Origin: a virus
IMG/VR virus record: IMGVR_UViG_3300040807_001229
Coordinates: 1 to 34,843 of that record
DNA: 34,843 nt
Reading direction: 5' to 3' (one strand)
Positions 10,168-34,414 of this stretch are shown here, one piece after another; position 1 is the first letter of the stretch; the number at the start of each line of letters is the position of its first letter. The notes below the pieces were generated by a model. That model was not told the origin of the DNA. It worked only from the letters and a program-made list of their open reading frames with translations, and made no database searches. Made by a program: the position numbers and the translations under genes.

Positions 10168-10193
10168 AAAAAAAATGCAACCATTTCTGTTGC
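10168..10193 (-). terminator. Rho-independent terminator of the tmRNA gene
   Basis: On the minus strand GCAAC (10193-10189) pairs with GTTGC (10181-10177) across AGAAATG, and a run of eight T follows. It lies directly after the last tmRNA pseudoknot-like hairpin. Confidence 0.75.
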
Positions 10194-10349
10194 TAGGTAG
10201 GTTGCCCACCCCATGAGATTATGCTGCTAGAGCAAAATCCTCAGATGCTACATTATCGTTAGCATTTATTGTTTTTTGCTGATTTACGGTCTCGCCTACC
10301 GGTAACTCCACTTCGCTATACAACGCCAATCGATACCTAGTTCGCCCCC
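10194..10349 (-). ncRNA. ssrA: tmRNA coding piece (tRNA-like 5' half and tag)
   Basis: It starts with the acceptor-stem strand GGGGGCG at 10349, then AACTAGGTATCGATTGGC, the D-region part of the tRNA-like domain. Upstream of the resume codon is an A-rich stretch (AGCAAAAAACAATAAAT), as in other tmRNAs. It ends with the hairpin 10210-10196 before the terminator. The 3' end is an estimate. Confidence 0.85.
10219..10263 (-). other. tmRNA proteolysis tag reading frame
   Basis: The frame starts at the resume codon GCT (10263) and encodes ANDNVASEDFALAA, followed by TAA. The ANDN start matches tags of alphaproteobacteria and the ALAA end is the type recognised by ClpXP and ClpAP proteases. Confidence 0.92.
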
Positions 10350-10480
10350 CTCAGAAACACACGAATAAGTAATGGCCCAAATCTATAACTTTTATAAGGA
10401 TTTCCACTATTTAATTTAAATTCGCCCCATTGAAAAGGAGTTCCTTTAAACCAACTAATCCAATGCCAATCCCAATTCAT
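10337..10480 (-). CDS. 47-codon ORF inside the intervening segment of the permuted tmRNA
   Basis: An ATG at 10480, with GAGG five bases upstream, opens a 47-codon frame covering almost the whole segment between the tmRNA pieces. It stops at a TAG (10339-10337) inside the mature coding piece. The product starts MNWDWHWISWFKGTPFQWGE and has five Trp and many aromatic and Gly residues, unlike random translation of this AT-rich DNA; it ends LLIRVFLRGAN. No family was recognised. If translated, ribosomes would read through the acceptor-stem strand of the precursor, so translation and tmRNA maturation could affect each other. Alternatively the frame is open by chance. Confidence 0.5.
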   Translation of the reverse strand: MNWDWHWISWFKGTPFQWGEFKLNSGNPYKSYRFGPLLIRVFLRGAN

Positions 10481-10498
10481 TATATCCTCATGTGTTTA

Positions 10499-10572
10499 TG
10501 GTGGAGGCGCCGGGATTCGCACCCGGGTCTTGTTCGCCTTTTGCTTGGCTTCAACGTTACAATACTATTTAA
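10499..10572 (-). ncRNA. ssrA: tmRNA acceptor piece (T-arm and CCA end)
   Basis: The 3' end is an encoded ACCA at 10502-10499. Upstream are the 7-base acceptor strand and a perfect 5-bp T-stem. The T-loop reads TGCGAAT, with G where the usual T55 sits. The 5' end near 10570 is estimated from the candidate promoter. Confidence 0.85.
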
Positions 10573-10595
10573 CTATATTTTAGGAGATTTGTCAA
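10567..10595 (-). promoter_or_regulatory. Candidate sigma-70 promoter of the tmRNA
   Basis: The minus strand has a perfect -35 TTGACA (10595-10590), then a weak -10 TTAAAT (10572-10567) at 17 bases. It overlaps the end of the upstream small gene. The -10 match is only four of six. Confidence 0.45.
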
Positions 10596-10596
10596 C

Positions 10597-10746
10597 TTAT
10601 TCTTTATCGTGATCACAAAGCATTTGGGTTGCTTTGTCTGTCCAAATGTCCGGAAAAATACCATGGACAACAAGGACAAAGGCTATACAAAATGCTCTAC
10701 GCATATGGGCGAAATATGTATAGCCCGTTTCTTTCAAATGTTTCAT
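10597..10746 (-). CDS. DUF6356-like small membrane-associated protein, 49 residues
   Basis: A short frame starts at an ATG (10746) three bases past the stop of the large structural gene. The product begins MKHLKETGYTYFAHMRRAFC, continues with a hydrophobic stretch (IAFVLVVHGIFPDIW) and ends in a polar tail. The pattern HLKET..YF.HMRRA...HGIFP resembles the small family DUF6356, found in phages and Proteobacteria, as recalled. Function unknown. Its 3' codons carry the -35 box of the tmRNA promoter, so it was missed by a size cut-off, not by lack of signal. Confidence 0.75.
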   Translation of the reverse strand: MKHLKETGYTYFAHMRRAFCIAFVLVVHGIFPDIWTDKATQMLCDHDKE

Positions 10747-12840: not shown

Positions 12841-13074
12841 CTATTTATCGGTACTATTATATGGTAGTATAATATAATCTTCCATTACTTCATTTACCAT
12901 AGCACGAGCAATAAGTTCAGGATCATTACCAGTGGTGATGTATATGCTTTTGCCTATACGTACATCTTCGACACAATCAAAGCCGAGGCCTCGTAAAGCT
13001 CGTGTTGTTGCTTTGCCAGCATTGTCAAGAATGCCACGCTTTAGCATTATTCTTATTTCATAGTGAGAGGCCAT
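12841..13074 (-). CDS. purS: PurS-like subunit of FGAM synthase
   Basis: The 77-residue product matches PurS: YEIRIMLKRGILDNAGKATT, RALRGLGFDCVEDVRIGKSI and a C-terminal half ending with an EDYIILP-type helix. In bacteria PurS holds together PurL and PurQ in the formylglycinamidine ribonucleotide synthase complex of purine synthesis. No PurL or PurQ gene is in the window. A phage PurS could therefore act on the host enzyme and boost purine supply, in step with the RNR genes upstream. The start overlaps the glutaredoxin gene by 17 bases. Family call is fairly firm; the function in infection is inferred. Confidence 0.85.
   Translation of the reverse strand: MASHYEIRIMLKRGILDNAGKATTRALRGLGFDCVEDVRIGKSIYITTGNDPELIARAMVNEVMEDYIILPYNSTDK
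12842..12848 (-). promoter_or_regulatory. Candidate T4-like late promoter (ATAAATA)
   Basis: The minus strand reads CCGATAAATAGTTTTATGGG. Only five bases separate it from the PAAR ATG, so any transcript would be leaderless. It also holds the PurS stop codon, which lowers confidence. Confidence 0.3.
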
Positions 13075-13330
13075 CTAGTCCTAGCTCTCCCATACGTTCA
13101 CGTAGTTCTTGTTCGGTCAGACTAGTAAGTGCATCAGCGCCGCCTGCAATAAACAGTTTACCATCTTTATAAATTTGTGGTGCTGTTCTATGACCTTCAG
13201 CAACCATATATTCACGTGCACTGCTGTCGTGATCAATATTGATTTCCTCAAAAGGAATATCATATTTTTTTAGGTATGCTTTTGCCATATTGCAATAGCC
13301 ACACCAGTCTTTTGTATATACTGTTAGCAT
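13058..13330 (-). CDS. Glutaredoxin
   Basis: This 90-residue thioredoxin-fold protein has the glutaredoxin active site CGYC at residues 10-13 (VYTKDWCGYCNMAKAYL), a TAPQIYKDG cis-Pro motif and GGADALT near the end. It would reduce the class Ia ribonucleotide reductase encoded just upstream. The ATG at 13330 directly follows the upstream stop (TAAAATG) with AGGA before it; a start 14 codons earlier would lie inside the previous gene and lacks support. Also overlaps the PurS start. Confidence 0.9.
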   Translation of the reverse strand: MLTVYTKDWCGYCNMAKAYLKKYDIPFEEINIDHDSSAREYMVAEGHRTAPQIYKDGKLFIAGGADALTSLTEQELRERMGELGLDGLSL

Positions 13331-13331
13331 T

Positions 13332-13772
13332 TTATTTTTTCCTAAAGTTTTTATAATAACCTTGCTCTTCAAGTGACTTTCTTGCTTGCTCTAGTTCCTG
13401 TCGTGGTTGTATAAAAGTTATTGCATATTTTCCTTGCTTGTCTTTTTCTTTATCTTCAGGATGATCCCACATTAATATATAGTCATCATTGCTTGCAGCA
13501 ATGCACATTTCGTCTAGCTTTTTACCTGAGAATAGTTTAGGATCTGTAGCCACTATTACAACATCACAGTTTTCTGGCCAATCCTTCATACTAGTTTCAA
13601 CAACAGTTTTGATATAACTATCTACGTCACTGTCAACTTCAATTACCTTTGCTCTGTTACTTAACCAAACCTGTTTAGCGTAAGGGCAAGGTGGTAAGCT
13701 ATTAAATGCCTGATTTGGTACACTAAGATAATTAAGTATCCAATCCTCTATTTGTTTAGAGGCTGAGTCCAC
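13332..13772 (-). CDS. Unknown protein of the RNR operon
   Basis: The 146-residue product starts at GTG 13772, inside the end of nrdB. The N-terminal part has WILNYLSVPNQAFNSLPPCP, a CPYAK motif, then DVVIVATDPKLFSGKKLDEM and TFIQPRQELEQARKSLEEQG. It looks like an alpha/beta protein. Position between NrdB and glutaredoxin suggests a role in RNR activity or redox transfer, but no domain is known to me. GAGG lies upstream of the start. The overlap with nrdB supports co-translation. Confidence 0.7.
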   Translation of the reverse strand: MDSASKQIEDWILNYLSVPNQAFNSLPPCPYAKQVWLSNRAKVIEVDSDVDSYIKTVVETSMKDWPENCDVVIVATDPKLFSGKKLDEMCIAASNDDYILMWDHPEDKEKDKQGKYAITFIQPRQELEQARKSLEEQGYYKNFRKK

Positions 13773-14928
13773 TGAACGTATCCTCTTCTACGTCTTGCTT
13801 GGTGCCACCAATAATGTAGCTTGAGATTTCGGTTTCTTGTGGTGCTACCTGTACTTCTGCGCCACTGATCCACTTCTGTGTCCAAGGCAGTGGACTTGCT
13901 GCTGGCACTGTGAACGGACTCTTAATACCAATAGCAATCATACGCTTGTTAGCGATCCATTCAATGTACTGACTTAGTAGTTGTGCATTAAGACCAATCA
14001 TACTACCGTCTTTGAATAAGAACTCTGCCCAACGTTTTTCCTGCTCAACTGCACTTACAAACATCTGCGTACATTCGTCTAGTGTTTCGTTTGCAATCTT
14101 TGCAAAGTCCTTGTCCTCTTTGGGTAGTAGTTTTAGTAACTGTTGTGTACTTCCCAAGTGTACATTCTCATCACGAGCAATAAACTTAATAATCTTAGCA
14201 TTGCCTTCCATCTTCTTAAGTTCTGCAAATGCCCATGAGCAAGCAAAACTCACATAGAATCGAACACCTTCGAGAATGTTTACACTCATAAGTGTAAGCC
14301 ATAACTTCTTCTTTAGCTCGTATAAATCTACATTGATCTCTGTTGCAACGTTGCTGAAGTTGCCGTTGACCTTTGATGTATCGTGTTCCTTGCCGCTTAC
14401 TACGAGATGCTTGCCTACACCAAGTAAATTATACCAACCGGCCATACGTACAAGATCATCATAGTGCTTGGTAATATCATCTGCACAGTCAACAATCTCC
14501 TGAATGTCTAACAGTTCGTCAAATACTTTGCTTGGATCTGCATATACATTACGAATAATGTGTGTGTAACTACGGCTATGAATAGTTTCACTGAATGCCC
14601 AAGTTTCAATCCAAGTCTCTAGTTCTGGTAAACTTACTAGTGGCAAAAAGGCTAGGTTAGGGCTACGACCTTGTACACTATCTAACAGAATCTGACGCTT
14701 GAGGTTGCTAGTAAAGATATGCTTTTCGTGGTCTGTAAGTTCTTTAAAGTCCTTAGCATCACGTAGGATATCCACCTCCTCAGGTCTCCAAAAGAAACCA
14801 AGTTGCTTGTCAGTGAGCTTGTCAAACGCACGATACTTGACATCGTCGTAACGCTGTACACCTACATCTCCGTCAAGGAAACTTTTTCTATTCTTATGAT
14901 CTCTGTTCTCTGTGTCTAATACTGCCAT
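13756..14928 (-). CDS. nrdB: Ribonucleotide reductase class Ia, small subunit
   Basis: The 390-residue product is close in length to E. coli NrdB (376). It carries the di-iron and radical site: Asp83 (LLDSVQGRSP), Glu114, His117 and Tyr121 (AFSETIHSRSY), corresponding to E. coli Asp84, Glu115, His118 and Tyr122, plus later ligands near KIIKFIARDENVH. NrdB makes the tyrosyl radical that NrdA needs to convert ribonucleotide diphosphates to dNDPs. It follows nrdA by nine bases with GGGGAAG before its ATG. Its C-terminus (EEDTFSGLSL) is the type of tail that docks on NrdA. Confidence 0.97.
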   Translation of the reverse strand: MAVLDTENRDHKNRKSFLDGDVGVQRYDDVKYRAFDKLTDKQLGFFWRPEEVDILRDAKDFKELTDHEKHIFTSNLKRQILLDSVQGRSPNLAFLPLVSLPELETWIETWAFSETIHSRSYTHIIRNVYADPSKVFDELLDIQEIVDCADDITKHYDDLVRMAGWYNLLGVGKHLVVSGKEHDTSKVNGNFSNVATEINVDLYELKKKLWLTLMSVNILEGVRFYVSFACSWAFAELKKMEGNAKIIKFIARDENVHLGSTQQLLKLLPKEDKDFAKIANETLDECTQMFVSAVEQEKRWAEFLFKDGSMIGLNAQLLSQYIEWIANKRMIAIGIKSPFTVPAASPLPWTQKWISGAEVQVAPQETEISSYIIGGTKQDVEEDTFSGLSL

Positions 14929-14937
14929 AGTCTTCCC

Positions 14938-17226
14938 CTAGATTACACAACTCTCGCAATCTTCTTCCTCTACTACATCTGGTAGCTCGAGAATAATTTG
15001 CTCTTTTTCTCCTGCGTCATCACCTGCACCATCGTAGGTGTTGAAGTAGTACAACTGCTTGAGTCCATACTTGTAACACATAATAAGATGTTTAAGCATA
15101 GTACTCATTGGAATCTTTTCATCATCATAGAAGGTAGGATTATAGCTGGTATTAGCACTAATACCCTGATCAATGTACTTTTGCAGTACAGCCATAATCT
15201 TTAGATAACCTTCAGGTGACTCCTGATCCCATAGTAGTTCATATTTATTTTTTAAACGTGGATAACCGGGTACTACCTGCTTGAGTACGCCATCCTTGCT
15301 TTGCTTTACGCTTACATAGGCACGAGGTGGTTCAATACCGTTAGTGCTATTTGAAATCTGTGCACTTGTTTCTGCAGGCATAAGTGCCATTAGTGTGCTG
15401 TTGCGAATACCTGTGTCAGCTAATTGCTTTCGCAACCCCTTCCAATCCATGCGTTCCTTATGCTTTACAAGCTCGTCCATGTCTGTCTTGTAAGTTTGAT
15501 TAGGTGTGATACCATCACCATACTTTGTCTCATCTACACCAGGACATGCGCCCTGTTCAACTGCAAGATCAGCACTAGCCTTGATAAGATAGTAACTCCA
15601 TGCTTCTGCATATTCATCTACTAGCTCTAGGTTAGGATTAGTATAGTTTGTATCATTACGTGCTAGCCAATATGCTAGATTGATAATACCAATGCCTAAT
15701 GGACGACGTAGCATTGTAGCACGTTCTGCTGCCTTTACAGGATAGTTTTGATATGTTAGTAGTGCATCCAATCCACGTACTGCTAGTGTACAAGGCTTCT
15801 CAAATTCCTTAGTATCTCTAATAAGTCCCCAGTTGATTGCGCTTAGTGTGCATAGTGCAATTTCACCCTCTTCATCATTAAAGTCGTTAAGAGGTTTAGT
15901 GGGTAGATCAATTTCACAACACAAGTTGCTTTGCTTTACAGGCGCAACATCCGCTTTGAAACTACTGTGATCATTAGCATGATCCACATTCATTAGATAG
16001 ATACGACCAGTGTTCTTGCGTTCTTCCATAAACGCACTAAACAAGTCACTAGCCTTAACAGTCTTTTTACGCAAACGTGTGTTACGTTCTGCTGTTTCAT
16101 AAAGCTCTTTAAATTTATCCTGATCTGCGAAGAAAGCATCATACAATCCTGGGACATCACTTGGTGAGAATAGTGTGATGTTGCCACCAGTGATTAGACG
16201 CTCGTACATTAGTTTATTAAACTGCACACCATAGTCCATATGACGTACACGGTTGTCTTCTGTGCCTTTGTTGTTCTTTAGAACAAGTAGGTCTTCAACT
16301 TCTAAGTGCCAGATAGGATAGTATAGTGTGGCTGCGCCGTTACGCACGCCTCCTTGACTACAACTGCGTGTAGCACTTTGAAATAGTTTATAGAATGGAA
16401 TCACGCCTGTGTGGTAAGCATCACCCTTGCGAATAGGAGATCCAATAGCACGAATACTACCAGCGCCAATACCTATACCAGCCTTTTGGCTAACATACTT
16501 AACGATACTGCTAGCAGTAGCATTAATGCTATCCAAACTGTCGGCTGTTTCAATAAGGACACAACTGGAGAACTGTCTCTGTGGAGTACGTACCCCAGCC
16601 ATAACAGGAGTAGGGAGACTAATAAAATATGTACTGATAGCGTCATAATAATCCTTCACCCAACGTAGGCGATCTTCTGTGTACTTGCTGAACAATGTAG
16701 CAGCAATACACATGTATGCCATCTGTGGAGTTTCAAATACTTCACCAGTAACACGATTCTTTACGAGATACTTGCCGCGCCACTGTTCCATACCAGCGTA
16801 GGTTAGTGTCTCATCTCTGTCGTGTTTGATATAATCGTTAAGCTCGTTCCATTCCGCTTCTGTGTAGTCTTCAAGTAGCGCAGGATCGTAGAAGCCACTG
16901 TCTACGTTGCGCTGTATGAGCTTGTAAACGTGCCATGGGTCAAAGTCACCATACACAATTTTGCGTAGGTGATAGTTAATTAAACGCCCTGCTACGTATT
17001 GGTAACCGGGCGTTTCTTCGCTAATTAAATCTGCTGCTGCTTTGATTAGTGTTTCTTGGATATCGCTAGTTTTAATGCCTTCATAAAACTGTAGATGACT
17101 GCGGATCTCTACTTCACTTGCGCTAACACCTGTAATACCGTCGCATGCGTAAAACACGACTTTGTGTAGCTTGTCTAGTTCTAAGTTTTCTTTTTCACCG
17201 TTACGCTTTTGTACTTGAATTTCCAT
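14938..17226 (-). CDS. nrdA: Ribonucleotide reductase class Ia, large subunit
   Basis: The 762-residue protein is nearly the length of E. coli NrdA. It has an ATP-cone (residues 1-90), active-site Cys222 (FSSCVL), Asn434-Cys436-Glu438 (SNLCCE), Cys459 (IALCTLSA), the radical-transfer pair Tyr726-Tyr727 (KQLYYFNTYD) and C-terminal Cys757/Cys760 (CESC) that receive electrons from glutaredoxin. It reduces NDPs to dNDPs with NrdB, in the cytoplasm. AGGAA precedes the ATG, which overlaps the upstream gene by 26 bases. No intein or truncation is visible. Confidence 0.97.
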   Translation of the reverse strand: MEIQVQKRNGEKENLELDKLHKVVFYACDGITGVSASEVEIRSHLQFYEGIKTSDIQETLIKAAADLISEETPGYQYVAGRLINYHLRKIVYGDFDPWHVYKLIQRNVDSGFYDPALLEDYTEAEWNELNDYIKHDRDETLTYAGMEQWRGKYLVKNRVTGEVFETPQMAYMCIAATLFSKYTEDRLRWVKDYYDAISTYFISLPTPVMAGVRTPQRQFSSCVLIETADSLDSINATASSIVKYVSQKAGIGIGAGSIRAIGSPIRKGDAYHTGVIPFYKLFQSATRSCSQGGVRNGAATLYYPIWHLEVEDLLVLKNNKGTEDNRVRHMDYGVQFNKLMYERLITGGNITLFSPSDVPGLYDAFFADQDKFKELYETAERNTRLRKKTVKASDLFSAFMEERKNTGRIYLMNVDHANDHSSFKADVAPVKQSNLCCEIDLPTKPLNDFNDEEGEIALCTLSAINWGLIRDTKEFEKPCTLAVRGLDALLTYQNYPVKAAERATMLRRPLGIGIINLAYWLARNDTNYTNPNLELVDEYAEAWSYYLIKASADLAVEQGACPGVDETKYGDGITPNQTYKTDMDELVKHKERMDWKGLRKQLADTGIRNSTLMALMPAETSAQISNSTNGIEPPRAYVSVKQSKDGVLKQVVPGYPRLKNKYELLWDQESPEGYLKIMAVLQKYIDQGISANTSYNPTFYDDEKIPMSTMLKHLIMCYKYGLKQLYYFNTYDGAGDDAGEKEQIILELPDVVEEEDCESCVI

Positions 17227-20841: not shown

Positions 20842-21986
20842 GCAAAATAATGTCTTTGGGCGCTTGCTTTTATAACGGACTTACTGGATGTGTCAAACCA
20901 ATCAAAGTGCGGATTTTTTTTTAATTTGTCGATATAACTCCATAAATGTTTTTCATATCTGTCTGCTTGCTCTAAATTACTATTAAAAAACCAGGCATCT
21001 CTTTCACTAAATGCAAGATATCCCATGCCTTCTCTAATTGGTTTACTTTTGCCGTGCACAAAAGTCTTATTATCCCAGAAAGGATACAGAATGCTTTTTA
21101 CTGCATCCATAGTAACATACATATTGAGAGTTTTATTATATCCATATGGGCTGTGGTCGCTCTGGTAAAAACTAGCATCATTGCAGGTTTCGCAAAATCT
21201 TTTAATAACATGGCTCTGCTTAATTACAATTTCTGGCATATCTGGAGACCAGTAAAACAACTCATCATACCAGCCATTTGTGTATTGCCGTTGCACTTCA
21301 GGACTCACACAGTTATCAAATATATCTAGGAACTGGAAGTACCAGCCATTGTTGTCCACTCCCAGTTGTGGCTTCTCACTTCCCCATATAAAACAAACTG
21401 TTTTGCCTTGATTAATAAGGTTTTGATAATCCTGTATAGTGCGGCGCCATCTGCCTTTTACAATATTATTAGGACTAAAACTATGGTTTGCACAATAAAA
21501 ATAATCTGTATTCACTTCCTCTACATAATTTATTGTGTCTGCACTCATGTCTATTTCTCTGAAAATAAAATCCATGCCTGAGTTTTGCATTGCTTTTATT
21601 GTAGGAAACACAACATTGTTAGGTTCGGAGTTGACAACATCTGTTCTATCTCCGGTTACCTCGTAATCGACAAAGCATGCAATCTCATCTATTTTACAAT
21701 CTGCTTGTGTCCATGCTTTAAGTAAATTACTACTGTCACTTCCTCCACTATAAAAAATTACACAGTAGTCATATTGATCTCTGATCTGTCTGGCTCTTTT
21801 TTTATATAAGTCCCACAAATCAATAGGAGGCTCTACACGCCAACTAGCGGTGTGAAATATCTCCTTGTTAAAATTCCATTCGGGAAAATTGCCAGTTCTA
21901 GCTTGCCATTCGATAGCTTCTAATTTACTATAAGTTTTAAGCTCTCCAACTGTATAGTAACCAAATTTATCAGCAGATAATATCAT
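20838..21986 (-). CDS. PP-loop (N-type) ATP pyrophosphatase-like enzyme
   Basis: The 382-residue protein carries the PP-loop signature SGGSDSS at residues 80-86, after a beta strand (YDYCVIFY). This motif binds ATP in enzymes that adenylate a substrate (NAD synthetase, GMP synthetase, asparagine synthetase, QueC, TilS and PAPS-reductase relatives). A Cys pair (FCETC) near residue 270 and several Asp/Asn loops follow, but no specific family pattern. Its ATG overlaps the permease stop (ATGA), and that gene is coupled to a substrate-binding protein. This suggests work on the imported compound. The substrate is unknown. Confidence 0.75.
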   Translation of the reverse strand: MILSADKFGYYTVGELKTYSKLEAIEWQARTGNFPEWNFNKEIFHTASWRVEPPIDLWDLYKKRARQIRDQYDYCVIFYSGGSDSSNLLKAWTQADCKIDEIACFVDYEVTGDRTDVVNSEPNNVVFPTIKAMQNSGMDFIFREIDMSADTINYVEEVNTDYFYCANHSFSPNNIVKGRWRRTIQDYQNLINQGKTVCFIWGSEKPQLGVDNNGWYFQFLDIFDNCVSPEVQRQYTNGWYDELFYWSPDMPEIVIKQSHVIKRFCETCNDASFYQSDHSPYGYNKTLNMYVTMDAVKSILYPFWDNKTFVHGKSKPIREGMGYLAFSERDAWFFNSNLEQADRYEKHLWSYIDKLKKNPHFDWFDTSSKSVIKASAQRHYFA

Positions 21987-22723
21987 CTATCATTACCTTC
22001 ACTTAGCGTACTCCAAAAACATAATGTTCGCCTAAGGTATTCTACACCCAAGTTAATACTTAATCCTATAATGCTTAACCAGATAATACCAGCAAACATT
22101 TCTGCAAATGCCATTTCGCCTCCTGTAAGAAATATCCAATGTCCTAGTCCATGCTTTGCGCCAAGCATTTCTGCTGCTACCAATAGAGTTAAGGCAAGGC
22201 TCCCGCTAGTTCTAAACCCTTGTATAATAGTAGGAAGGTTATAAGGAAGTATAATCTTACGTATAATCATATATGTGTTGCCACCACATGCCCTGCCAGC
22301 TTCTATGTAGGTTTTTGGTGTGCGTAATACGCTACCATATGCTGTAATGATACTTGGAAAAAATGCACCTATGAAGATAGTTGTAACTTTACTTACTTCT
22401 CCTAATCCAAGTAACACAACAAAAAGCGGAAGAAGTGCTATTTTTGGAATAGGAAATAAGCTACTTACTAGAGGCATTATAAGTTTACGTGCATGATAAT
22501 TCGTGCCCATAACAATCCCAATAGTTGAACCGATAAACATACCAATGGACCAGCCTACTGTAAGTCGCCATAGACTAGTCCAAAGGTTGAATAAAAAGTC
22601 AGGATTTACTAGTAACTCAAAGAAGGTTGTTATGATATCCCATAGTCCTGGAATATATCCTCCTTTGAGTACTAGTTCCCATAGCAGAATAACTGCGGAA
22701 ACAGTTATAGCTGTATGTTTCAT
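21983..22723 (-). CDS. ABC transporter permease, SsuC/TauC type
   Basis: The 246-residue protein has about six hydrophobic segments and the EAA loop of importer permeases: EAGRACGGNT through to LPYNLPTIIQG (residues 141-169), the docking site for the ATP-binding subunit. Pattern and length match the nitrate/taurine/sulfonate/thiamine-precursor (BPD_transp_1) permeases. The ATG overlaps the stop of the binding-protein gene as TAATG and its stop overlaps the PP-loop start. No ATPase subunit is in the window, so it would have to use a host ATPase or another phage gene. Phage ABC permeases are unusual. Confidence 0.9.
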   Translation of the reverse strand: MKHTAITVSAVILLWELVLKGGYIPGLWDIITTFFELLVNPDFLFNLWTSLWRLTVGWSIGMFIGSTIGIVMGTNYHARKLIMPLVSSLFPIPKIALLPLFVVLLGLGEVSKVTTIFIGAFFPSIITAYGSVLRTPKTYIEAGRACGGNTYMIIRKIILPYNLPTIIQGFRTSGSLALTLLVAAEMLGAKHGLGHWIFLTGGEMAFAEMFAGIIWLSIIGLSINLGVEYLRRTLCFWSTLSEGNDR

Positions 22724-23706
22724 TAATCTAGATCAAAATACTTTGAGTCTGAATGACGGTTTGGTAGATCTAGTTTTGTAACTAACAACGAAGTGTATTC
22801 ACTTAGACGTGGGCCAACGGCCTTTGCGTTACTAATACCGTTCTTCTGTACAAAAGGTGTATTAACTAGTTCGTTAATACCGTATTGTGCGCGGCGTAAT
22901 TCTAGTGCTCTCTTTGCATCAGTTGACACAATAGGTCCACTTAAAGTTGCTACGCTTGCTGCTGGATTCTTAACAAAGCCTGCAACTAGTTCACGTAGTA
23001 CTTCGCGAATTGCAACTACAGCCTTTGGATTTGCTGCTGCCCAATCGCTGTTAACTGTGATAACACGACTAACTGCTGTTGGAAACTTATCGCTCATCCT
23101 AATAATATTCAGCTTATCACGTGTCACGCCAACCTTTTCAAAGTTAAAAACATTGGTTGTAATAAAACCTTCTACTGCATCAACCTTACCAGTAGTAAGA
23201 CTGGGAACACGAGCACTAAAAGGCATGTTAACCATTTCCCACTTTGCAGTTGTTACGGCGGGTAGTACTTTATTTGTAACGCCTGTGATAAAGCCGCCCA
23301 ATGTTTTACCGTCTAGCTTATCAAAACTTGTAATACCTTTTTCTTTCAAGCTAAAAACAGCGTCTTGTGCTTTGTCATCTACAACAAAAATGGCTGTAAC
23401 TTTAGGGTCAGCAGACTTGCTATTAACAAGAACTAGACCGCTGTAGTCATGATAGCCAAGCTCTGCTTTGCCAGCGGAAAGTGCTAGTGCAGTTTTTACA
23501 CTGCCTGGGCCTTTGCCAATAAATTCTACGTCGACGCCTCGACGGGCAAATGCACCGTCTTTGATACCTTTAAGGATCCAACTATGTACACCAAGTGGAC
23601 CAATATCAATAACCAAACGTGCCTTTGTATTTTCTGCACTTGCAGGAATAATAGTAGTAAAGACTACAGCCACAGCAATAGCCATTCCGATAATAAACTT
23701 CTTCAT
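22723..23706 (-). CDS. Periplasmic substrate-binding protein (NMT1/SsuA-like)
   Basis: The 327-residue product has a Sec signal peptide (MKKFIIGMAIAVAVVFTTII, cleavage after ASA at residues 22-24). The mature part resembles the NMT1/THI5/SsuA binding proteins: KARLVIDIGPLGVHSWILKG, GVDVEFIGKGPGSVKTALAL, AGKAELGYHDYSGLVLVNSK and VDAVEGFITTNVFNFE. These bind sulfonates, taurine, nitrate or thiamine precursors for an ABC importer; the ligand cannot be told from sequence. AAGGAG precedes the ATG, and a leader of about 150 bases lies upstream. With the permease it forms an importer lacking an ATPase. Confidence 0.9.
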   Translation of the reverse strand: MKKFIIGMAIAVAVVFTTIIPASAENTKARLVIDIGPLGVHSWILKGIKDGAFARRGVDVEFIGKGPGSVKTALALSAGKAELGYHDYSGLVLVNSKSADPKVTAIFVVDDKAQDAVFSLKEKGITSFDKLDGKTLGGFITGVTNKVLPAVTTAKWEMVNMPFSARVPSLTTGKVDAVEGFITTNVFNFEKVGVTRDKLNIIRMSDKFPTAVSRVITVNSDWAAANPKAVVAIREVLRELVAGFVKNPAASVATLSGPIVSTDAKRALELRRAQYGINELVNTPFVQKNGISNAKAVGPRLSEYTSLLVTKLDLPNRHSDSKYFDLD

Positions 23707-32713: not shown

Positions 32714-34414
32714 ATGAAATTACCAAAAGATGCGAAGGCTCAAATAGATAGGCTACTTGGCAGGTTCACAAGGCAAATACCAGAGGCTCCTGAGTACCAA
32801 GACAGACTCGTCGAAGAACTTGAGATTATACTCAAACTTCGCTTTACTGATTATTTCCTAACAATTTGCGACGTACTAGCTCTGACCGAGGACATTCCAC
32901 ATATGACTCGGGGTTCAGCAGGGTCTAGTCTTGTCTGTTATCTCCTAGGAATAACGGACGTTGATCCCATAAGGTGGCAGATACCTGTTGCCCGTTTCCT
33001 AAATCCTTTGAGGGATGATCTACCAGACGTAGACATAGACTTTCCGCATTGGCAACAGGCGACTGTGATGCAACGTATCTTCGCAAATTGGCCAGAACGT
33101 TCAGCAAGAATCAGTAACTATGTGCTATACAAGGAGCGCAGTGCACGTAGAGAAGCGGCACGCCGTCTAGGTGCGACTGGTAGACTTCCTCGTAATTTTC
33201 GTTATGAAGATTTAGACATAGACAAGGAAGAGGCCATGAGAATAGAACAAAAACTAATAGGCAAAAAACGCAGCATCAGCAAACACTGTGGTGGTGTTCT
33301 TGTATTTGACAGGAAACTACCCAAGAGTTTATTCAACAAAGACAATCAAATACTGTTAGACAAACGTGAAGTGGAAGACTTAGAACATCTTAAGATCGAC
33401 ATACTTGCTAACAGAGGACTAAGCCAACTTATTGAAATAGATCCTGATACACCACTAGAGACATATCCAGAAGAGGACTTTGAGACAAGTCAGTTGTTAT
33501 GCAGAGGCGATGTTATCGGTGTAACACAAGCAGAGTCTCCTGCAATGCGTAGACTGTTCCGTGCAATACAACCACAATCAAAAGCAGACTGTGTGTTTGC
33601 TACAGCACTAATACGTCCTGTTGCAACCACAGGCAGACAGAAAGCAAGTTTCTTCCAGGACTGGACAGAACAAAGACTAGAGGACACTATTGTATATGAG
33701 GATGATGCTATACGTAAGATTGCTCGACTCATAGGCTGCGACTTGTATGAAGCAGACATGTACAGACGTGCATTTGCTAAAAAGGATGAAGAACGTGTAA
33801 TGGAGTTTATGAGTCGCATGGGTGAACATGAGGACAAAGAATCTATTATACAAGAACTATATGGACTGGGTAACTTTGGGCTGTGCCGTGCTCATGCTGT
33901 AAACTTGGGCAGACTTATTTGGGCACTTGCGTATCAAAAGGCACACAACCCTATGAAGTTTTGGCAGGCTGCACTCAAGCACTGTCAAGGATCATACAAG
34001 CGTTGGGTACACAAGCAGGAAGCAAAAACAGCAGGCTGGGATCTACGTGATCTTGGATTTGAGAATGGTATATGTGAGTCGCCTGTTACACAATACAAAC
34101 GCAATGGCTATTGGACACAGCCGGAGTTTATGCCCAATATGTTTGTACAGGAAACCTATCTGGACCGTGTAAACTTTGCAGGGCTTGTAGCAAATGGGCG
34201 TGTATTCAAAGGTGCAGAGGGTAAGTATGTTACGTTTGTTACGCTAGGCGTGGGCAATAGTGATTACGTAGATGTAACTATCAAGAAACCCTTTGGCTAT
34301 AGAGATCACGATGTTATTGTGGGCAGTGGTAAGATACGTATGACCAATGGCACACGCTATATTGACTGTTGGGAAGCAAAGGGCTATAGACTAGACAAGT
34401 ACTTGTCCACATAA
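32714..34414 (+). CDS. C-family (DnaE-like) DNA polymerase alpha, small form without PHP domain
   Basis: This 566-residue protein matches the polymerase core of bacterial DNA polymerase III alpha. It has YFLTICDVLAL, then TRGSAGSSLVCYLLGITDVD and RFLNPLRDDLPDVDIDF. The catalytic pair is Asp107/Asp109 and a third, Asp229, is in HLKIDILANRGL, matching E. coli Asp401, Asp403 and Asp555. Also present are CGGVLVF, the fingers phrase GLCRAHAVNLGRL and an OB-type tail (GLVANGRVFKGAEGKYVTFV). The 270-residue N-terminal PHP proofreading/metal domain of DnaE is absent, and no exonuclease is attached. It is the only plus-strand gene. It could be a replicative or repair polymerase. Confidence 0.85.
   Translation: MKLPKDAKAQIDRLLGRFTRQIPEAPEYQDRLVEELEIILKLRFTDYFLTICDVLALTEDIPHMTRGSAGSSLVCYLLGITDVDPIRWQIPVARFLNPLRDDLPDVDIDFPHWQQATVMQRIFANWPERSARISNYVLYKERSARREAARRLGATGRLPRNFRYEDLDIDKEEAMRIEQKLIGKKRSISKHCGGVLVFDRKLPKSLFNKDNQILLDKREVEDLEHLKIDILANRGLSQLIEIDPDTPLETYPEEDFETSQLLCRGDVIGVTQAESPAMRRLFRAIQPQSKADCVFATALIRPVATTGRQKASFFQDWTEQRLEDTIVYEDDAIRKIARLIGCDLYEADMYRRAFAKKDEERVMEFMSRMGEHEDKESIIQELYGLGNFGLCRAHAVNLGRLIWALAYQKAHNPMKFWQAALKHCQGSYKRWVHKQEAKTAGWDLRDLGFENGICESPVTQYKRNGYWTQPEFMPNMFVQETYLDRVNFAGLVANGRVFKGAEGKYVTFVTLGVGNSDYVDVTIKKPFGYRDHDVIVGSGKIRMTNGTRYIDCWEAKGYRLDKYLST

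Follow-up and report, generated by a model that had tools for sequence, protein, structure and literature searches.

Comparative evidence for a small protein gene between the two pieces of a phage-borne permuted tmRNA

The sequence analysed here (the window) belongs to a marine phage and comprises 34,843 nt of the IMG/VR viral record IMGVR_UViG_3300040807_001229. Its minus strand carries a tmRNA gene of the permuted, two-piece type, in which the acceptor piece precedes the coding piece. This arrangement, the alphaproteobacterial type of the tmRNA and a covariance search as a check had all been put forward in a preliminary description. The search was run with Infernal and Rfam 15, and both relevant models scored above their gathering scores: RF04321 (tmRNA_permuted) at 10560-10219 (-), with 115.2 bits (gathering score 47, E 5e-22), and RF01849 (alpha_tmRNA) at 10599-10174 (-), with 91.5 bits (gathering score 50), the latter bearing out the alphaproteobacterial type. 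ARAGORN independently called a permuted tmRNA with the tag ANDNVASEDFALAA. The tmRNA is far above chance, and the interval originally proposed, 10194-10572, covers nearly the whole gene, the alpha model reaching to about 10174.

The acceptor piece (10499..10560, -) was delimited from the RF04321 and RF01849 alignments and from sequence. It contains the 5' half, the T-arm (10526-10510), the acceptor 3' strand (10509-10503), A10502 and CCA (10501-10499). The T-stem, CCGGG/CCCGG (10526-10522/10514-10510, -), encloses an unbroken T-loop, TGCGAAT, with no group I intron in it in the window sequence. The coding piece (10174..10349, -; Rfam and ARAGORN) begins with the acceptor 5' strand, GGGGGCG (10349-10343), and extends to where the alpha_tmRNA match ends; it includes the tag reading frame, ANDNVASEDFALAA followed by TAA (10219..10263, -; ARAGORN and sequence). 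As described before, CGCCTCC (10509-10503) and GGGGGCG pair in all seven positions, with G-U at the third. G3-U70 is the identity pair of alanyl-tRNA synthetase, so this wobble pair is expected and is no blemish. The 7-bp acceptor stem with G3-U70, A73, CCA and the T-arm are all present, with compensatory changes among relatives. The resume alanine codon, the small apolar C-terminus (the ALAA end) and the stop of the tag frame are also intact, as they are in relatives. Judged by this anatomy, the permuted tmRNA of the window is most likely functional.

The initial suggestion that ribosome rescue or tagging is retuned during infection was not borne out, as the tag is a normal ANDN...ALAA sequence and no SmpB gene was found in the window fragment. 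The same result for SmpB, together with the gain that phages could draw from altered rescue, would suit a decoy directed against host trans-translation, comparable to that reported for the tag-less tmRNA of phage DS6A (cited in PMC11915505). However, the tag frame, resume codon, ALAA end, G3-U70 pair and CCA are all intact in the window, as in its relatives, and we regard this role as highly improbable. A comparison of the tag with host ssrA genes had also been suggested. The tag resembles those of 28 alphaproteobacterial genes.

The two pieces are separated by an intervening sequence (IVS) of 149 nt (10350..10498, -), located between CCA and GGGGGCG and predicted to be cut out during maturation to the two-piece form. 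A Shine-Dalgarno sequence, GAGGA (10485..10489, -), is read 9 nt into the IVS and 4 nt 5' of an ATG; it is conserved in most aligned loci of what we call the W family. The ATG opens a nested W-family gene of 47 aa, MNWDWHWISWFKGTPFQWGEFKLNSGNPYKSYRFGPLLIRVFLRGAN (10337..10480, -), whose stop codon (TAG, 10339-10337) lies inside the coding piece, where it is the TAG of GGGGGCGAACTAG. This stop is about 12 nt past the expected RNase P site, which falls within the Arg44 codon. The 149-nt IVS with its 47-codon ORF was absent from the preliminary description and is the distinctive feature of the locus. The W protein has a conserved core of 42 residues; residues 3-42 are highly conserved, whereas the tail after RVF, set by the 5' end of the tmRNA, is variable. 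It had no match in Pfam or PHROGs, and tblastn against 50,697 phage records returned none that was credible. AlphaFold2 with 20 homologues gave a mean pLDDT of 64 and three low-confidence beta strands (16-24, 27-34 and 37-42), too weak for a fold search.

A promoter-like element (10566..10595, -) was read from the sequence as TTGACA (10595-10590), a 17-nt spacer and TTAAATA (10572-10566); a consensus scanner missed it because its second hexamer is TTAAAT. TTGACA followed after about 17 nt by a TATAAATA-like box just 5' of the RNA start is common to the window, its aligned relatives and phage Melnitz. At the other end, a hairpin resembling a terminator, GCAACAGAAATGGTTGC with a T run after it (10168..10193, -), overlaps the 3' end of the coding piece; two such hairpins were found against 1.0 expected in shuffles. 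The shared promoter-like element and the 3' hairpin suggest that the nested gene is expressed from the tmRNA's own transcription unit. Outside the tmRNA, a neighbouring DUF6356-like ORF of 49 aa (10597..10746, -; PF19883, 27.5 bits, cut-off 24.4) stops 2 nt 5' of the tmRNA promoter; it falls below a 60-aa ORF cut-off.

Relatives of W were sought in IMG/VR by DNA pattern and then by an alignment-based scan, which detected at least 62 viral loci. Estimates of pN/pS in the W frame were 0.19-0.21; among 24 distinct sequences the value was 0.21, versus 1.53 and 1.03 in the two shifted frames. Column shuffling, repeated 200 times, never gave an in-frame value as low, although the relatedness of the sequences means that columns and pairs do not count as fully independent observations. 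By this comparative evidence, the W ORF is a real gene under purifying selection. Conservation of the IVS for RNA structure instead of coding was considered and rejected for W, since variation is synonymous in one frame only, even though the IVS ends form a covarying helix.

A simple motif test placed the ORF inside a tmRNA IVS in at least 46 W relatives, which is most of them. It is also found intact without a surrounding tmRNA: free-standing in loci L229, L230 and L251, with IVS flanks in L235, and alone, 20 nt 5' of another tmRNA, in L277. The free-standing copies in L229 and L230 carry a GGGGGTCGAAC tail resembling a relic of the coding piece, which suggests that the free W gene escaped from a tmRNA. 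In L246, the W ORF and the acceptor piece are kept and the coding piece is degraded or lost; about 540 bp 3' of the W ORF lies an intact second permuted tmRNA that has the tag of the window and a short IVS lacking an ORF. The same tmRNA body therefore exists with and without the gene. In the L246 interval that spans both (1010-2140), the degraded tmRNA comes first, and the complete permuted tmRNA after it scores 104 bits with the beta_tmRNA model.

Nested ORFs are not confined to W. A scan of IMG/VR that was blind to ORFs, and required only the 5' part of the coding piece, retrieved at least 93 distinct viral tmRNAs, whose IVSs ranged from 8 to 499 nt. We counted ORFs of at least 22 codons preceded by a Shine-Dalgarno site (SD-ORFs), taking dinucleotide shuffles as the null. 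Among the matches listed with an IVS of at least 100 nt, 26 out of 34 held an SD-ORF, versus a mean of 3.8 (maximum 9) in shuffles. A second scan, for IVSs of 120-150 nt, yielded SD-ORFs in 33 of the 69 matches listed versus 3.3 expected. Covariance models confirmed the tmRNA around even the examples with the longest IVSs. The IVS ORFs belong to several unrelated families, and seven of these (W and six others) had pN/pS values of 0.03-0.48, the F family being the highest at 0.48. In locus L292, the 499-nt IVS contains a 120-aa ORF; its homologue in Melnitz (53% identity) is annotated as a gene of its own at another place in that genome. The tmRNA of Melnitz itself has a 142-nt IVS with an unannotated ORF, MFKWLSKTR...KIPKYLSG..., of a family that differs from W.

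The simplest alternative is that the window holds an ordinary phage permuted tmRNA and that the IVS ORF is a chance open frame in an AT-rich spacer. Phage two-piece tmRNAs are already known (PMC9004378), and chance alone would place such an ORF in about one long IVS in ten. The observed IVS ORFs nonetheless exceed this expectation some 7 to 10 times, and one IVS (L292) houses a known separate phage gene. In W, a pN/pS of 0.21 against shifted frames at 1.0 or above, and persistence of the ORF after loss of the tmRNA, likewise argue against chance, which we consider very unlikely.

Two further observations concern individual families. Loci L303, L310, L316 and L347 and their relatives (IVSs of 159-192 nt) encode the family MK(N/T)PLV..SKWMF(K/R)AYIVWSICAD..LLAG, a predicted small membrane peptide that recurs in many viral IVSs. 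For the IVS ORF of L348, a match to DUF2061 (19.6 bits) fell below the cut-off of 23.1 and was kept as a lead only.

The ends of the IVS can pair with each other. In the window, the 5' arm AAACACAT (10490..10497, -) pairs with 10362-10355, and the 3' arm GTGTGTTT (10355..10362, -) with 10497-10490, at a pair probability of 0.85-1.0 in the predicted fold. Across 173 viral IVSs, this 8-bp helix atop the acceptor stem had a mean of 7.86 of 8 pairs, versus 6.32 with shuffled partners. Covariation is extensive, as illustrated by the arm pairs TAAACACA/TGTGTTTA, TAATTACT/AGTAATTA, AAAGGAGA/TCTCTTTT and TAAGGACA/TGTCTTTA. Neither RF01849 nor RF04321 shows this helix in its consensus structure line. 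Modelled in this way, the closing helix would let the tmRNA fold whatever the content of the IVS. The predicted fold of the window also pairs the start codon and part of the Shine-Dalgarno sequence, so translation would need a co-transcriptional or unfolded state. In loci of the MK(N/T)PLV family, the helix would mask a Shine-Dalgarno-like site contained in the 5' arm AAAGGAGA itself.

The overlap of Shine-Dalgarno and helix would also suit a nested ORF that is mainly regulatory, either because translation over the RNase P site melts the acceptor stem and so delays maturation or because the product of a cleaved, nonstop ORF is tagged by the tmRNA itself in an ArfA-like loop. The position of the stop codon is divided in this respect: it is past the cleavage site in 50 of 87 SD-ORFs, mostly so in the W, F and MDEV families, but within the IVS in the remaining 37 of 87. 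Conservation of the amino acids, and retention of W without a tmRNA, imply that the product matters, and the W tail after RVF is variable. A mainly regulatory ORF is thus unlikely in our judgement. A related proposal, which we put forward tentatively and hold to be improbable as a whole, treats the tmRNA precursor as a dual RNA gene that contains its own feedback. The IVS would be a dedicated slot for interchangeable small effectors of the phage, acting on the ribosome or trans-translation in the course of infection. With the W and F frames spanning the RNase P site, translation and maturation would be mutually exclusive, or the protein made from the cleaved precursor would receive that tmRNA's tag.

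Identical IVS genes occur in phages that are otherwise unrelated and within divergent tmRNA shells. Among 15 distinct loci with a 149-nt IVS, the DNA of the W ORF averages 91% identity versus 61% for the coding pieces; random tmRNA pairs average 59%. Between L242 and L233, the whole IVS is 100% identical, but the T-stem differs, the coding pieces are 53% identical and the rest of the loci is unshared. When W loci flanked by 1 kb or more on both sides were compared in pairs (blastn, E 1e-5, contigs of 5-14 kb), 170 out of 231 pairs shared only a tmRNA/IVS patch of less than 450 bp. The boundaries of these patches lie at the conserved T-arm and acceptor in some cases and near the RNA ends in others. 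L276 and L266, which have unrelated flanks, share 387 bp at 99.2% identity, from near the promoter to near the 3' end of the tmRNA. For this pair, we considered and set aside that the entire tmRNA might be an autonomous mobile element, as homology-limited recombination explains the patch equally well. Exchange of this kind needs no more than homologous recombination at the conserved tRNA-like domain, and no recombinase is implied.

Cellular tmRNAs present a different picture. In a set of 142 alphaproteobacterial genomes, RF04321 matches spanned a median of 219 nt, and at least 300 nt in only 4 out of 130, versus 342 nt in the window. Cellular IVSs normally have about 30 nt; the measured alphaproteobacterial ones are mostly 5-76 nt long, and those of 105, 165 and 232 nt lack an SD-ORF. 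Inheritance of the ORF from a cellular tmRNA was rejected on these grounds. A SAR11-directed genome scan returned three loci, none of which was identified as SAR11. The sole SD-ORF among the 46 measured IVSs was in L216/L390, from a MAG labelled Euryarchaeota, on a contig that also encodes an endolysin and a DNA helicase loader. These neighbours indicate that the 'archaeal' tmRNA is located on a phage contig, and L216 is probably phage sequence misbinned in the Euryarchaeota MAG. The L216 tmRNA (PBDU01000009, 1426-1867) is permuted and has a 76-aa IVS ORF that belongs to the same family of 76-77-aa ORFs as that of L371.

Prophages commonly attach at tmRNA genes, and a contig of host or prophage DNA, in which the tmRNA is simply the host's gene, has to be weighed for the window as well. 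The tmRNA is, however, situated within a one-strand run of lytic T4-like phage genes, sister contigs have the same neighbours, and cellular IVSs are short; we consider a host origin extremely unlikely. That the tmRNA is phage-borne, as claimed at the outset, is also supported by neighbours that match phage endolysin, endonuclease, dCMP deaminase, ribonucleotide reductase small subunit, PAAR and tail families. For a 710-aa protein of the window, the closest isolates are marine T4-like phages (about 41% protein identity), with Melnitz among the best. The link to an alphaproteobacterial host drawn in the preliminary description is not supported. According to PMC9004378, Melnitz carries an alpha-type tmRNA yet infects OM43, which does not belong to the alphaproteobacteria, so the tmRNA type does not fix the host; moreover, tmRNA parts recombine between unrelated phages.

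Phage two-piece tmRNAs as such have been published: PMC9004378 counts 53 among 133 unique phage tmRNA structures, 50 of them aquatic or marine, and a 2025 tmRNA database holds 79 bacteriophage sequences (PMC11915505). The phage-borne two-piece tmRNA is therefore already known, and what appears to be new is the gene between the pieces. The open-access journal literature searched contained no report of a protein gene in a tmRNA IVS, and the available text of PMC9004378 reports none in the IVS of Melnitz. The Methylophilales phage Melnitz (MZ577097; PMC9004378) resembles the window in its phage-borne permuted alpha-type tmRNA, with the tag ANDNYVPVDYALAA, the TTGACA...TATAAATA promoter layout and an IVS ORF. 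It differs in the family of that ORF and in a glutamine riboswitch just 3' of the tmRNA (RF01739, 52.8 bits), none being found in the window at the gathering score; phage two-piece tmRNAs as a wider group are not defined by this riboswitch.

Cellular alphaproteobacterial permuted tmRNAs (RF01849/RF04321, Caulobacter type) share the gene order, the tRNA-like domain and ANDN...A(L/V)AA tags with the window, which scores 115 bits against about 110-166 for most of these cellular genes, but they have a short IVS without an SD-ORF. The group I intron form (PMC11915505) is alike in having a protein gene, there a homing endonuclease ORF, in a removed segment of the tmRNA gene. That ORF is part of a self-splicing intron in the T-loop, whereas the window's lies in the IVS, with no intron or endonuclease domain found. 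A permuted tmRNA from an archaeal MAG has a second gene nested in its IVS, a tRNA-Ala, which PMC11915505 calls unique; the genes described here encode proteins, recur and belong to several families.

We think it likely, from sequence comparison, that the window encodes a working phage tmRNA whose precursor is also an mRNA for an exchangeable small-protein cassette. Transcription would probably start at the tmRNA's own promoter and run to the 3' terminator. Cleavage by RNase P together with 3' processing would free both the acceptor and the coding piece, which would pair into a two-piece tmRNA that, with the SmpB of the host, rescues stalled ribosomes and adds the ANDNVASEDFALAA tag. The long IVS, closed by its own helix, would serve as mRNA for the 47-aa W protein, with the Shine-Dalgarno sequence just inside the helix, and W would probably be translated during transcription, before the 3' arm of the helix exists. 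The IVS would then act as a cassette slot whose ends are fixed by the tRNA-like domain and the helix, the gene inside being swapped or replaced by unrelated small genes.

Apart from the tag, tmRNA is treated as purely non-coding, and annotation pipelines leave the IVS blank. In many marine phages, the IVS instead appears to be a protein gene and a hot spot of gene exchange, and it thereby harbours a set of unannotated small phage proteins. Nested genes offer a direct route to asking why a phage retains its tmRNA, whether for ribosome rescue only or for carrying cargo as well. An RNA that is both translated and processed poses a conflict that can be tested. The results also call for caution in inferring phage hosts from tmRNA type, and they include one tmRNA from an 'archaeal' MAG that lies on a phage contig.

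Other genes of the window are as follows. At 21983-23706 (-), it encodes parts of a phage-borne ABC importer, namely an NMT1/THI5-like substrate-binding protein and a permease, which are likely auxiliary metabolic genes; a 382-aa gene without a Pfam match adjoins them. The genes for class Ia ribonucleotide reductase, NrdA and NrdB, lie at 13058-17226 (-) together with a glutaredoxin-like ORF and form a set that is ordinary for marine T4-like phages. The sole long plus-strand gene, at 32714-34414 (+), encodes a 566-aa protein with DNA polymerase III alpha domains (NTPase and finger).
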